A DNA stretch of 31,624 bases, taken from the IMG/VR virus record IMGVR_UViG_3300006033_000080, positions 1-31,624 of that record. One strand, 5' to 3'. Within the stretch, counting starts at the first letter, position 1. Each line of letters starts with the position of its first letter. The notes under the pieces are model-generated. The model searched no databases. It was not told the DNA's origin and saw only the letters and a program-made list of their open reading frames with translations. The position numbers were made by a program, and so were the translations under genes. Positions 24,132-31,368 of this stretch are shown here, piece after piece. The DNA comes from a virus.

Positions 24132-24523
24132 TGCAAACCCGCGTCTCACATCTGGCTCAGCGTGAAATGGGCGTGGGAGGTGTTCTCGTGACAACTCCCG
24201 ATGAGACTGGTTCCGGCCGGAGCAAACTTTGGGGATGGTTCGGTCTGGACCGCGCCAGCTTTGCCGTCATGCCTCGCGTGTTGATACACGCCATGCCGGA
24301 TGAATGGCAGGGCAAAATGGCCGATCTCCTGATCGAGTTCGAAGAAACATTTCCGGGCCTCCAAGACCTTCCCAACGCGACGATCACGGCAAAGCGCGGG
24401 AACAAGTTCACGAGCTGGCCCTCGTGGCTGTTGAACTACCGCAGGCCACATCAGGGCGACATTGACGCGATGCGCCCACTCTCCCGCACCGACGCAGAGA
24501 ACGCAGCGGGGATGGTGTCGTGA
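24131..24523 (+). CDS. Conserved early phage protein (WGWFGLDR type)
   Basis: 130 residues from ATG 24131 (TGATG overlap; longer frames upstream are rejected). The conserved-looking block LWGWFGLDRASFAVMPRVLI, MPDEWQGKMADLLIEFEETF and then FTSWPSWLLNYRRPH resembles small proteins of unknown function from early operons of proteobacterial phages. The alternating aromatics suggest an alpha/beta fold. No catalytic motif. Confidence 0.6.
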   Translation: MQTRVSHLAQREMGVGGVLVTTPDETGSGRSKLWGWFGLDRASFAVMPRVLIHAMPDEWQGKMADLLIEFEETFPGLQDLPNATITAKRGNKFTSWPSWLLNYRRPHQGDIDAMRPLSRTDAENAAGMVS

Positions 24524-24963
24524 GCCTCCACGTTGTCCCACTCGATCTGGCATCGGCCAACGCCTTTGTTGCGAAGGTGCATCGCCATCATGGCGAAGTC
24601 GTCGGGCATAAGTTCTCCCTCGGCGCGTCAAAGGACGGCGAGATCGTAGGCGTGGCAATTATCGGTCGCCCCGTGGCGCGGGGCAGGGATGACGGCTGGA
24701 CGCTTGAAGTCACGCGCCTTGCGACAGACGGGACGAGAAACGCCTGTTCCTTCCTGTATGGCGCGGCTGCGAAGGCGGCGTTCGCACTCGGCTATCGTCG
24801 CATCGGGACATACATCCTGGCAAGTGAGCCGGGAACATCCCTATCAGCTGCTGGGTGGCGTCAGATCGGGGAAGTGAATGGCCGCTCATGGTCATGCAAA
24901 TCCCGTCCTCGTGTCGATAAGCACCCGACCCTCGACAAGCTTCTGTTTGAGAGGGCCGCATGA
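24520..24963 (+). CDS. GNAT-like phage protein (XF1762 type)
   Basis: 147 residues from a GTG overlapping the previous stop. The strand pattern 'HKFSLGASKDGEIVGVAIIG', then EVTRLATDGTRNACSFLYG-AAAKAAFALGYRRIGTYI, SEPGTSLSAAGWRQIGEV is that of the GCN5 acetyltransferase fold, with 'R-x-x-x-x-x-S-x-L' where the acetyl-CoA loop lies. It resembles the phage XF1762-type group, whose substrate is unknown. The typical GNAT Q/RxxGxG/A loop is not well formed, so activity is uncertain. Confidence 0.65.
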   Translation: MSLHVVPLDLASANAFVAKVHRHHGEVVGHKFSLGASKDGEIVGVAIIGRPVARGRDDGWTLEVTRLATDGTRNACSFLYGAAAKAAFALGYRRIGTYILASEPGTSLSAAGWRQIGEVNGRSWSCKSRPRVDKHPTLDKLLFERAA

Positions 24964-28110: not shown

Positions 28111-28410
28111 ATGTTGGACCAGGCATCAGCCATAGCCGACAAAGCAGCGGCCGTCGTTCACAAGATGGTCGCGAAAGAGGTCGCCGACATCATCGAAAGC
28201 GAGCGGCGTGTGAGCCTCCTGATCGAGCGCGACAAGAGCATTGATCGCGAGATCATGAACGCCTGCATTGAGGTCGGAATCGCGGTCGACAAGTTCAAGC
28301 AGGCGAAATTCACGGGCGGCAGTGCGGAGATCCGGGCGAGGGAGAAGCTGGAGCGCGAGGCAGATCGGCTCCAAGCGATTCTGAGGCAACACAAGAAGAT
28401 GCCGCGATGA
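28111..28410 (+). CDS. Small helical hypothetical protein
   Basis: 99 residues from the ATG at 28111 (GGAG eight bases upstream). Helical over almost its full length (DKAAAVVHKMVAKEVADIIE, ERDKSIDREIMNACIEVG, REKLEREADRLQAILRQHKK), likely a coiled-coil dimer. Basic C-terminus. No family recognised. Confidence 0.55.
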   Translation: MLDQASAIADKAAAVVHKMVAKEVADIIESERRVSLLIERDKSIDREIMNACIEVGIAVDKFKQAKFTGGSAEIRAREKLEREADRLQAILRQHKKMPR

Positions 28411-28622
28411 TCTCGATCTCCGAACGACTTCGCGCCTACAGTGAACCGGTAGGAGATGGCAAGGGAACATGGCGCAAAGTCGGCGTGTGTCAGGAAGCCG
28501 CCGACACTTTGGACGCTATCGTGTGGGTGCTGGAGAAGATGGGTGACAAGACGATCAGCGAATACGAACTAGACGTGATGCGCCGCGCCGCTCTCGCCAA
28601 GGCGAAAGGCAAGCAGGAATGA
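28407..28622 (+). CDS. Small hypothetical protein
   Basis: 71 residues (ATGA overlap). SISERLRAYSEPVGDGKGTW, then a helix (CQEAADTLDAIVWVLEKMG) and ELDVMRRAALAKAKGKQE. It is immediately before the NusG-like gene, with which it shares an ATGA overlap. Unknown; may support the antiterminator. Confidence 0.5.
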   Translation: MISISERLRAYSEPVGDGKGTWRKVGVCQEAADTLDAIVWVLEKMGDKTISEYELDVMRRAALAKAKGKQE

Positions 28623-29173
28623 CGTGGTATGCTATCCGATCCGCGCCCGGTTCGCAGAAGCCGCAACGCGAATACGCTGTGGAAAAAACGGCGCTGACAT
28701 CGAAGGGCAATACGCGCGGCAAAGGCTATCGCATCGTGCCTAGCCTCAATCCGGACGTGTCGGCAATCGAGCGCGTTCTGACCGACGCCGGTATCTCCTG
28801 TTATATGCCAGCCGAGCGGCGTCTCGTTAGAGACAGACTTCGCCCTTACCTGTGGAAATCCCGCCGTTTTGCCATGATCGTCGGGTATGTGTTCATCCAA
28901 GATCCAAATTGGGAAGTGCTATACGATCTCCCCGGCGTCGTGGGTGTTGTGGGTGTAGGCGAAACTCCTATGCCGATTGAATTCTTTGACATTCTAACGT
29001 TGTTCGATGCCGAGGCAAAGGCGTTGGTGAAATTTCAGGAGGAATCGCGCGCGGCTCGCCAGATCATCCGCAAAGCTGCCAAGACCGATCCCAGCCTGAA
29101 GAAGATCGTGGACAAGCTTGACATCGCGGGCACGATCACGGTGCCACTTTCCGAAGCGAAAAAAGCCGCTTGA
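28619..29173 (+). CDS. NusG/RfaH-like transcription factor (candidate late antiterminator)
   Basis: 184 residues. The NGN-domain ends are visible: the start MTWYAIRSAPGSQK (W-Y-x-I strand) and later GISCYMPAERRLVRDRLRP, SRRFAMIVGYVFI, WEVLYDLPGVVGVV. These are the strand and RNA-polymerase-facing parts of NusG N-terminal domains. Between them is an unusual insertion (about residues 23-50). The usual C-terminal KOW domain is missing; instead a helical tail (EAKALVKFQEESRAARQII) follows. It is the last rightward early gene before the terminase, so a role in letting polymerase read the late genes is inferred. No late Q-type protein is evident. Confidence 0.75.
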   Translation: MTWYAIRSAPGSQKPQREYAVEKTALTSKGNTRGKGYRIVPSLNPDVSAIERVLTDAGISCYMPAERRLVRDRLRPYLWKSRRFAMIVGYVFIQDPNWEVLYDLPGVVGVVGVGETPMPIEFFDILTLFDAEAKALVKFQEESRAARQIIRKAAKTDPSLKKIVDKLDIAGTITVPLSEAKKAA

Positions 29174-29606
29174 AGTTAACCAGCAATAGGTTAATGTGCC
29201 GTGCAGGTGATTTGCATGGCGACAGGGGAAACCCCGGCCTACAGCTGAGATGTTCACCGCTCAGCGCATGGCGTCATATTGCCTCAGGATGGGAATACAC
29301 GCCAGCCAAACCCAGCGCCCACGTGCGGCGCGCGTCAGCGGTTTATTGCCAGAGTTTCGCGCTTCGGCGCAACGATATGCGAGGCGGAAGACCCAAGGCC
29401 AACGGCAAGTCGGCAATAGCCCGAGCAACTTGCGTCCGCACCCAACGGGTATCCCAGTATGAAAAGCCGGAAGTCGCGCCCCGGCCCTCGCACACTTTGC
29501 CGGCCCTGTCCCATCGCTCTCCAGAGATGCCTAACTCCAGGGGACATGCGCGCGGGCAAGCCTCATCAGAACAGACCATTCGCGCGCTCAGACCGCCGAG
29601 GGTGAC
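29174..29606 (+). other. Non-coding, structured region before the terminase genes
   Basis: 433 bases. Reading frames here look random on both strands. Hairpins: TTAACC/GGTTAA (29176-29181/29189-29194), GCTGAG/CTCAGC (29244-29249/29260-29265), and GCGC-TTCG-GCGC (29359-29370) with a UUCG tetraloop. CCGGCCCT is repeated at 29481-29488 and 29500-29507. It is the expected position of a cos or pac site and of a late promoter or antitermination RNA; which of these it is cannot be told from one sequence. Confidence 0.4.
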
Positions 29607-29885
29607 ATGAAAAAACAAACGCCGAAAATCGGAGAGGGCAGACCAGGCCCAGGACGGCCAAAGGGCGTTCCCAACAGGACGACCACGCTGCTCAAGGATG
29701 CCATTCTCAAGGCTGCTACAGACGCGGGCAAAGGGGATATGGCGGCATACCTACAGAGGCAGGCTGAGGAGAACCCAGGCCCGTTCATGGCCCTTCTCGG
29801 CAAGGTGCTGCCCATGCAGGTGAATGTGGACGGCAAGCTTGCCCTGACGCCTACAATCAACTTCGGCAATGGCAAAGCCGGCTGA
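29607..29885 (+). CDS. terS: Terminase small subunit-like protein
   Basis: 92 residues. A basic start (GEGRPGPGRPKGVPNRTTTLL) and helices (KDAILKAATDAGKGDMAAYL) end with 'ENPGPFMALLGKVLPMQV', a familiar layout of small proteins directly before large terminases. It would bind the packaging site and hand DNA to the large subunit. It lacks a longer helix-turn-helix domain seen in other TerS groups. Its end overlaps the large-subunit start by 17 bases. Confidence 0.7.
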   Translation: MKKQTPKIGEGRPGPGRPKGVPNRTTTLLKDAILKAATDAGKGDMAAYLQRQAEENPGPFMALLGKVLPMQVNVDGKLALTPTINFGNGKAG

Positions 29886-31368
29886 CGCCGCGCTCGACAT
29901 CAACCTGCATGACAAGCAGCAGGTGGCGTTCTGGAGCGAGGCAACGGAAATCCTTTACGGCGGGGCGGCTGGCGGGGGCAAAAGCCATCTCATGCGGATG
30001 GCTGCGATTACGTGGTGCGCAGAGATACCGGGCCTACAGGTCTATCTCTTCCGCCGTATCCGAGACGATCTGGTCAAGAACCACATGGAAGGCCCGAGCG
30101 GCTTTCGCGAGTTCCTGGCAGGCTGGGTCGAATGCGGGTTCGCGACGATTGTCGAGGACGAGATCAGGTTTTGGAACGGCTCGAAGATCTATCTCTGCCA
30201 CTGCAAGGACGAGAAGGACCGCTTCAAATATCAGGGCGCTGAAATCCACGTCCTGCTGATTGACGAGCTGACGCACTTCACGGACACGATCTACCGCTTC
30301 CTGCGCAATCGCGTCCGCATGGTAGGCATTGATGTCCCGGCCAAGTATCGCGGCAAGTTCCCTCGCATCCTGTGTGGGGCGAACCCGGGCGGCATTGGGC
30401 ACCAGTTCGTCAAGATGACATTCATTGATGGTGTCGAGCCGATGAAGGTCATCAAGGCGCCGAACAGCGAAGGTGGCATGGACCGGCAATACATCCCGGC
30501 CCGCCTCGAAGATAACCCGTCGATGACGGATCACGACCCCGGCTACGAAATGCGGCTTGCCGGCCTCGGTAGCGAGAGCCTGGTGCGCGCAATGCGCTGG
30601 GGCGATTGGGATGTGGTCGAAGGGGCGTTCTTCGACAATTTCGATCAGAAGCGCCATGTCATCCGGCCGTTCGAGATACCGGATGATTGGTTGCGGTTTA
30701 GGGCGGGGGATTGGGGCAGCGCCAAGCCGTTTTCGTTCGGGTGGTATGCTGTCCCGCCCGACGAGTTCAAGACGCCTGATGGCGCGATTATCCCGCGCGG
30801 CGCGCTCGTCAAATATCGCGAATGGTATGGGTGCCGGAAGGATCAGCACGGCAAGTTCGTGCCCAACGTTGGCTTGAAGATGGATGCCAGCGAGGTCGGA
30901 CGCGGGGTATGGGCGCGCGATCTGGACGACAAGATCTCATATGGGGTTCTCGACCCTGCTGCATTCGCTACGGACGGCGGCCCGTCGATAGCCGAACGAA
31001 TGGCAAATGCTGGCGCTTTCTTCCGGCCCGCCGACAACAAGCGCGTCACTCAACGCGGCGCAATGGGTGGCTGGGACCAGATGCGCGCCAGACTGCGGGG
31101 AGATGCGGAAGGGCGGCCGATGCTGCTGTTCTTCTCAAGCTGCATCCATTCGATACGCACAATCCCGGCACTGCAACACGACGAGGACAGGCCAGAGGAT
31201 CTGGATTCGGATAGCGAGGACCATGCGGCTGACGAAACCCGTTACGCCTGCATGTCGCGCCCGTGGGTTCCGACGCCGCTGTTCGATGACAGCCCGCCCG
31301 TCCCGCCTCCCGGCAAGTTCATCATTCCGCCCCCGCAAGAGCCGCCACGGTCAAGGATACGCATATGA
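29869..31368 (+). CDS. terL: Terminase large subunit (packaging ATPase/nuclease)
   Basis: 499 residues. N-terminal ATPase: Walker A GGAAGGGKS (residues 31-39), Walker B VLLIDE (Asp132-Glu133), coupling motif LCGANPGG (about residue 168). C-terminal RNase H-type nuclease: Asp281 in RAGDWG and Asp362 in GVLDPAAF are the likely metal ligands. It cuts concatemeric phage DNA and drives it into the procapsid through the portal encoded next. Length is typical. It is preceded by TerS and followed by portal with an ATGA overlap. Confidence 0.95.
   Translation: MAKPADAALDINLHDKQQVAFWSEATEILYGGAAGGGKSHLMRMAAITWCAEIPGLQVYLFRRIRDDLVKNHMEGPSGFREFLAGWVECGFATIVEDEIRFWNGSKIYLCHCKDEKDRFKYQGAEIHVLLIDELTHFTDTIYRFLRNRVRMVGIDVPAKYRGKFPRILCGANPGGIGHQFVKMTFIDGVEPMKVIKAPNSEGGMDRQYIPARLEDNPSMTDHDPGYEMRLAGLGSESLVRAMRWGDWDVVEGAFFDNFDQKRHVIRPFEIPDDWLRFRAGDWGSAKPFSFGWYAVPPDEFKTPDGAIIPRGALVKYREWYGCRKDQHGKFVPNVGLKMDASEVGRGVWARDLDDKISYGVLDPAAFATDGGPSIAERMANAGAFFRPADNKRVTQRGAMGGWDQMRARLRGDAEGRPMLLFFSSCIHSIRTIPALQHDEDRPEDLDSDSEDHAADETRYACMSRPWVPTPLFDDSPPVPPPGKFIIPPPQEPPRSRIRI

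Follow-up and report, generated by a model that had tools for sequence, protein, structure and literature searches.

Which factor turns on the late genes of a phage in which no Q-like gene is visible? In phage lambda, Q is the last early gene, and it has a single target, the adjacent late promoter PR' with its start-proximal signal, after which the packaging genes follow. The question is raised by a 31,624-base virus record from IMG/VR, referred to here in its whole length as the window, in which a NusG-like gene occupies the corresponding place. A sequence-only reading of this DNA had proposed that the gene represents a class of phage antiterminators based on NusG instead of Q and devoid of a KOW domain. 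The coding features concerned are as follows.

28619..29173, + strand: NusG-like protein of 184 aa, with an NGN domain (residues 1 to about 121), an insertion (~14-47) and a helical tail
29607..29885, + strand: probable small terminase subunit, matching PHROG 11043, which has no assigned function; the role is inferred from position
29869..31368, + strand: terminase large subunit, with Pfam and PHROG matches

The gene at 28619-29173 is real and codes for an NGN-domain protein. Its ATG start overlaps the stop of the preceding ORF (28407-28622); in a Pfam scan the NusG model PF02357 matches residues 50-121 (E 8.7e-8; 33 bits, with a cut-off of 22.2 bits), and PHROG 25909, "transcription antiterminator," matches the full length (residues 1-184, E 7.3e-45). 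An AlphaFold2 model built from 26 natural sequences, which replaced an earlier AlphaFold model from 5 sequences (pLDDT 66), has a mean pLDDT of 80.8, and its leading fold matches (Foldseek, VIA-align 2) are the NGN domains of RfaH, NusG or Spt5. The best of these is 8pen_P, which is RfaH fully recruited at the ops-paused complex (Z 12.1, rmsd 1.9, 96 residues, within model residues 1-133). By profile and by fold the protein meets the NGN criterion of the NusG/Spt5 superfamily, so that the NGN-type N-terminal region proposed from the letters alone is confirmed by the very comparison with NusG and RfaH structures that had been suggested as a check. The long insertion claimed within this domain is also there: the model places it between a strand at 3-8 and the first NGN helix at 49-56.

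The placement of the gene just before the packaging genes holds as well, the terminase large subunit lying at 29869-31368, and the gene order in phiLM21 and RHph_N28_2 is the same as in the window. Among 20 downstream proteins in the loci of relatives, picked by size and distance, 14 match PHROGs for the large terminase subunit, of four or more kinds (9, 979, 38, 2/3717); one (L015) matches PHROG 2472 only, and the remaining five are something else (esterases in L020 and L040, an RtcB-like protein in L034, an unassigned protein in L023, and none in L027). Because the downstream terminases are of several kinds, we conclude that the NusG-like gene remains in this position even though the packaging module varies. 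The earlier statement that no Q-like gene is visible was upheld in that neither Pfam Q family, PF06530 or PF03589, matches any part of the record (E 0.1), and no other late regulator was found among the 26 window proteins scanned with PHROGs, a set that does not include every ORF. The window also encodes an integrase, tail fibres, an endolysin, RusA and a Mom-like gene, from which we infer that the phage is temperate; the Mom-like DNA modification protein, at 24520-24963, matches PHROG 1384 (E 2e-35). Other genes are found around the same position in relatives: an esterase-like gene (PHROG 8480, lysophospholipase L1-like) lies between the late leader and the likely packaging genes in L020 (6069-7292) and L040 (9924-11174), and a tRNA-Met gene follows the NusG-like gene in phiLM21 (L042 11410-11486, minus strand) and in RHph_TM3_3_3 (L078 1347-1422, plus strand).

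Whether the protein truly lacks a KOW domain required a measure other than the Pfam one. No KOW model matches the window protein in the Pfam scan, and Pfam KOW was dropped as a test of KOW presence since it fails on relatives with a plain KOW; absence in the window protein consequently rests on sequence and alignment, and KOW presence was judged by a profile of the relatives' long tails together with the UpxY match of L028, which extends through the KOW of that protein. The relatives, aligned without L001 (a near copy) and L033 (cut off at a contig end), show two tail types: a short, window-like type (177-195 residues) and a long type (211-235 residues) running into a KOW, and the profile of the long tails weakly matches the KOW domains of Spt5, uL24 and NusG (best E 1.9e-4). 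At their C-terminal end, the short tails align to the second half of the KOW of the long type (hhalign probability 93.1%, E 3.3e-7, the value for that single comparison). When the short tails were aligned individually to the KOW, 14 of 15 scored higher than almost every shuffle, with no more than 5 of 300 reaching their scores, and for the window tail 1 of 300 did so; the L023 tail is no closer to the KOW than shuffles are (80 of 300 as high).

Because of this alignment we read the tail as an eroded KOW: that of the window protein is best read as a KOW minus its first half, predicted to be helical. In the model a long helix (122-156) is followed by a second one (158-172), and residues 173-184 have pLDDT below 50. 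The earlier description of a helical tail in place of the KOW is thus right as to the helices and the absence of a complete KOW, and has to be amended in that a remnant of the second half persists. The first half, including the KOW motif, is missing, and the bacterial two-domain form of NusG/Spt5 is therefore not met. As a trait of the class, KOW loss could not be sustained: close relatives keep a full KOW, and these KOW-bearing proteins have the same cis element as the window. We infer from the universality of KOW in the family that its presence is the older state; a single loss was considered, and the tree, which requires one or two changes between the tail types, does not decide the matter. 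The KOW of RfaH can take a helical form and many NusG paralogs may do likewise (PMC9247905), and the portion of that source available to us describes no stripped KOW.

A recruitment site within 400 bp upstream of the gene was considered and dropped, since no 8-mer there was shared by more than 6 of 19 groups of relatives. A k-mer count over the 500 bp after the gene, by contrast, found GTGATTTG in 13 of these groups; a control region 4.5 times larger gave at most 10. The sequence-only reading had named 29174-29606 as the region to try in front of a terminator; a conserved unit does lie there, confined to roughly the first 100 bases after the gene. Its parts in the window are the following.

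29170..29175, + strand: -35-like hexamer TTGAAG, extending over the TGA stop codon that ends the NusG-like gene
29192..29197, + strand: -10-like hexamer TAATGT, spacer 16
29206..29214, + strand: GGTGATTTG, conserved block close to where transcription is predicted to start; the window has a single GTGATTTG
29218..29239, + strand: hairpin 1, with outer stem GGC/GCC, asymmetric internal loop GACA/G and inner stem GGGG-AAA-CCCC
29244..29265, + strand: hairpin 2, GCTGAG-ATGTTCACCG-CTCAGC, its stem derived from comparison with shuffles
29276..29283, + strand: ATATTGCC, a third short block shared with some relatives (6 of 19 groups)

The order of -35-like hexamer, -10-like hexamer, GGTGATTTG, hairpin 1 and hairpin 2 is fixed in the relatives, where the -35-like hexamer often falls on the stop codon of the gene, the spacer is 15-18 and the -10-like hexamer ends about 8-12 bases before TGATTTG. 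At 22 non-redundant sites the promoter match averages 8.68 of 12, compared with 6.41 +/- 0.20 for shuffled sequences and 5.74 at random places, and lies above all 200 shuffles (maximum 7.0); the window's own match is weak (7 of 12). The putative promoter resembles in form the σ70 consensus of S. meliloti, CTTGAC-N17-CTATAT (PMC2573895). The 22-site test, like a separate shuffle of the hairpin 1 stem, includes one chance row (L007 at 625/626), which was excluded from alignment A4, the leader folding energy, and the hairpin 2 and terminator counts. In loci with a gene inserted after the NusG-like one, the complete unit is found beyond the insert (at +268, +383, +394 and +1784), in the +1784 case behind an RtcB-like gene; in L034 an RtcB-like RNA ligase gene (1264-2622) separates the leader unit from the NusG-like gene.

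Hairpin 1 is a putative RNA structure supported by covariation. Its 24 distinct copies align without gaps, except for the three-base loop of the window, and the outer stem varies with compensation (GGC/GCC, GCAGC/GCUGC, GGCGC/GCGCC, GGAC/GUCC and others) around two near-invariant parts, the asymmetric internal loop (GACN opposite G) and an inner stem GGGA/UCCC; the loop is NNCG in most copies and AAA in the window. Pairing is found in 88.9% of cells, against 74.9 +/- 1.7 after shuffling, and the covariation score of 0.397 compares with 0.153 in shuffles; none of 500 shuffles reached either value, and shifting the partner by 1-3 columns lowers the pairing to 33-58%. Kinship among sequences can lift such scores above shuffles without any structure; a more cautious measure, the number of pairs changed on both sides, gives 6, a value reached by 17 of 500 shuffles, and the second, separate shuffle test of the stem agrees. 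In L062, kept in alignment A4, the outer stem is mostly unpaired in the fixed register. The hairpin 1 model, R1, scores 25.9 bits in the window (E 1.7e-5; next window match E 0.91), the window copy being one of the 24 sequences from which it was built; most of its matches are likewise by construction, L026 and L032 not being among the 24, and no clear site was seen in 4 of 36 sources (L015, L035, L041, L042).

The stems of hairpin 2 exceed those of shuffled sequence in length, reaching at least 6 pairs in 13 of 21 copies (shuffled mean 4.3, maximum 9). TCAC occurs within its loop in 15 of the 21 copies. In the window the loop sequence TTCACC could pair with GGTGA at 29206-29210, making a pseudoknot possible. 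The predicted energy of the whole leader is no better than that of shuffled sequence (mean z -0.75), and the claim for the hairpins accordingly rests on comparison alone; the minimum-energy fold is often without hairpin 1, and Rfam has no match in the window.

Gene and cis unit occur together. When 2.9 million viral contigs were searched with a pattern that joins GTGATTTG to the hairpin core, for which we roughly estimate fewer than one chance match, 33 loci were returned. A NusG-like gene lies upstream in 31, which is every locus that could be judged (37-1146 bp from the end of the match); in the other two the DNA upstream is only 39 and 321 bp long. Twelve contigs were new, including KOW-bearing relatives missed by protein patterns. 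The unit is present in single copy by pattern in 11 of 14 records, the other three having none, and by covariance model in 10 of 10.

Proteins of the phiLM21 type have the same promoter form and GTGATTTG followed by another hairpin, CGGACC...GGGAATACTCG, which we call class II. The pattern GTGATTTG-N20-45-GGAATACTCG gave 103 stretches, of which 80 were examined: 70 bear the full class II signature. Upstream of it, within 3 kb, a NusG-like gene is found in 67, the upstream DNA of the remaining three being 455-1289 bp long; none of the 10 stretches that lack the signature has the gene. The inner stem of class II varies with its pairing kept (mean 4.86 pairs against 3.05 +/- 0.17 shuffled), and the outer pair switches between G-C and U-A. 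Class II hairpins (L079-L158, for example L104) are commoner than those of class I. A constant GTGATTTG with hairpin classes matched to protein subfamilies is what would be expected if protein and hairpin interact, and suggests that they do, with linked descent contributing too; co-occurrence of an adjacent gene and element can also come from shared descent.

The relatives that retain a full KOW derive from phages and prophages of Hyphomicrobiales. Of all relatives, thirty loci are in viral contigs and four in genome contigs (Chelativorans twice, a Rhizobiaceae MAG and a Hyphomicrobiales MAG), and those in phage records, from phiLM21 and two Rhizobium phages, are annotated as NusG-like antiterminators. 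Within the host order, 2 of 397 genomes have a match at E 1e-15, one of them the genome on which the search was centred. Another genome of the order encodes a distant phage-type protein with NGN and a complete KOW (L071 1297-2358, minus strand), with a longer open frame in front. The phiLM21 and Rhizobium phage proteins are like that of the window in the position of the gene before the terminase, in the NGN recognizable by sequence and in the promoter-like sequence followed by GTGATTTG (not read out in RHph_TM3_3_3), and differ from it in identity (about 28-33%), in their tail and in the class II hairpin. The class had not gone unnoticed: PHROG 25909 and the GenBank records of these phages already say transcription antiterminator, and a 2025 survey, as far as its accessible part goes, has all phiLM21-like prophages carrying a NusG-like antiterminator (PMC12429752). 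The database label itself appears to rest on similarity only. Our literature search, which did not reach the original phiLM21 paper, returned no account of the promoter-hairpin unit or of a KOW remnant; to the extent that the literature was covered, the names are known, and what is new is the cis unit beside the gene and the erosion of the KOW.

We consider it likely that this NusG paralog, loaded at the late promoter and its leader, makes late transcription processive in the manner of Q, both binding and antitermination being inferred. A specialised paralog, the last product of the early operon, would thereby turn on the late genes. RNA polymerase would start at the σ70-like promoter at the end of the gene, whose late role is inferred, and the leader RNA would begin near GGUGAUUUG and continue into the conserved hairpin, the structure of which is backed by covariation. 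The protein would be loaded there through the hairpin RNA, the exposed non-template DNA or both, presumably read by the NGN domain and its basic insertion; judging from the fold, it could stay on the polymerase through the clamp contact common to NGN domains and so render it resistant to pausing and termination across the late genes. With the KOW reduced to a short helical tail, contacts to Rho and the ribosome might be lost or altered, or the tail might be a helix that, as in RfaH, keeps the NGN masked before loading; both suggestions are speculative. Of the original idea of a NusG-based late antiterminator instead of Q, then, fold, position, the lack of Pfam Q families and the co-occurring promoter-hairpin unit speak for it; relatives had already been annotated as antiterminators, the class-wide KOW loss had to be given up, and the function remains an inference.

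The target of antitermination is not evident, because sites resembling intrinsic terminators are rare after the element: 3 over 21 loci, against 1.4 +/- 1.05 in shuffled sequence, and none in the window. Intrinsic terminators after the leader were set aside for want of a clear excess, the only strong-looking ones being in L004 (+147; the same contig as L017) and L036 (+205). Since the leaders lack evident terminators, the protein would have to act on pausing or on Rho-dependent termination.

How the protein is loaded is a question within the preferred reading. In an RfaH-like form of it, the protein would read the non-template DNA of GGTGATTTG in a promoter-proximal paused complex, and the hairpins would only hold the pause. 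Such loading is possible, if rather doubtful: GTGATTTG is the sole block common to both hairpin classes, recruited RfaH is the best fold match, and the insertion site of the family adjoins the region of RfaH residues K10, H20 and R23, which contact ops together with R73 and lie just after the first strand or in the first helix (PMC5995543); yet the hairpin keeps its stem, through compensatory changes, and its internal loop, a degree of conservation that a pause alone would hardly need, and the block is about 10 nt or less from the predicted start, which is early for an elongation complex.

The leader might instead act without the protein, either directly on RNA polymerase, as the put RNA of HK022 acts on its own (PMC9378689), or as a 5' UTR stabiliser, leaving the NusG-like protein a global role such as displacing host NusG and blunting Rho-dependent silencing of phage DNA. 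We think this improbable. Linked descent could explain why neighbouring parts co-occur, and a KOW-less protein could, by inference, compete with host NusG without recruiting Rho; against this, the element is present once per genome at the presumed late promoter, close relatives with the same element keep their KOW, and the two hairpin classes track two protein subfamilies with GTGATTTG held constant, which suggests joint action. That the gene is merely an ordinary accessory copy of NusG with no part in late expression finds room only in the similarity-based nature of its label, and is scarcely credible given its position before several unrelated terminase modules and its dedicated cis unit.

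For the wider evolutionary proposal we see the chances as even: Hyphomicrobiales phages would have swapped Q for NusG paralogs guided by a leader hairpin, the two hairpin classes diversifying with the two protein subfamilies, and in the branch of the window the KOW would have eroded, with the NGN alone sufficing for loading and processivity. It would show phages rebuilding the late switch from a universal elongation factor, not from Q. There may be a whole phage group of RNA-associating NusG-like proteins, whose recognition could be read from the natural variation of the two hairpin classes, and since KOW-bearing and KOW-less versions occur naturally beside the same site, the role of KOW in antitermination would be directly testable.

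Among known systems, lambda Q and PR' share with this arrangement a phage gene last in the early region, an adjacent promoter with a start-proximal signal, a single target and packaging genes downstream. The protein families are unrelated, and the record has no Pfam Q family. GafZ of the Caulobacter gene transfer agent offers a further parallel as an alphaproteobacterial phage-like late cluster under antitermination; unlike our protein, it acts together with host NusG and through a putative DNA site located between the -35 and -10 positions, and the accessible part of the source, which mentions a Q binding element, does not describe it as NusG-like (PMC11150451).

The proposal that DNA is read leans on RfaH, which shares with the phage protein the NGN fold (as its best structural match) and the standing of a specialised paralog, and near whose ops-reading site the phage insertion falls. 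It differs in that the window protein has no complete KOW able to become a β-barrel. The RfaH model TIGR01955 does not match the window protein at E 1 (relatives score 17-28 bits against 144.5), and the UpxY model NF033644 reached 14.2 bits against a cut-off of 100. There is no ops site at the leader (29100-29700, up to 2 mismatches), and the window as a whole has 7 sites against 3.9 expected at up to 2 mismatches, no clear enrichment.

The proposal that RNA is read is taken from LoaP: its target leaders contain a UNCG hairpin that LoaP binds and that antitermination requires (PMC12691694). The LoaP model NF033641 has no match to the window protein and gives the KOW-bearing L028 17.7 bits against a cut-off of 125. 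LoaP acts on polyketide operons (dfn and mln of Bacillus velezensis), whereas the phage protein is proposed to act on late genes, its leader has no clear intrinsic terminator, and the window protein is without a KOW. What the two have in common is that each is a NusG paralog with few dedicated targets and with a hairpin in the target leader, of the UNCG type for LoaP and mostly NNCG in the phages (AAA in the window). As of 2025, and as stated in the part of that source available to us, specific association with an RNA element is known for no bacterial NusG-like protein other than LoaP (PMC12691694); if our reading is true, the phage protein would be the second known kind of RNA-guided NusG-family protein, and the first in phages.
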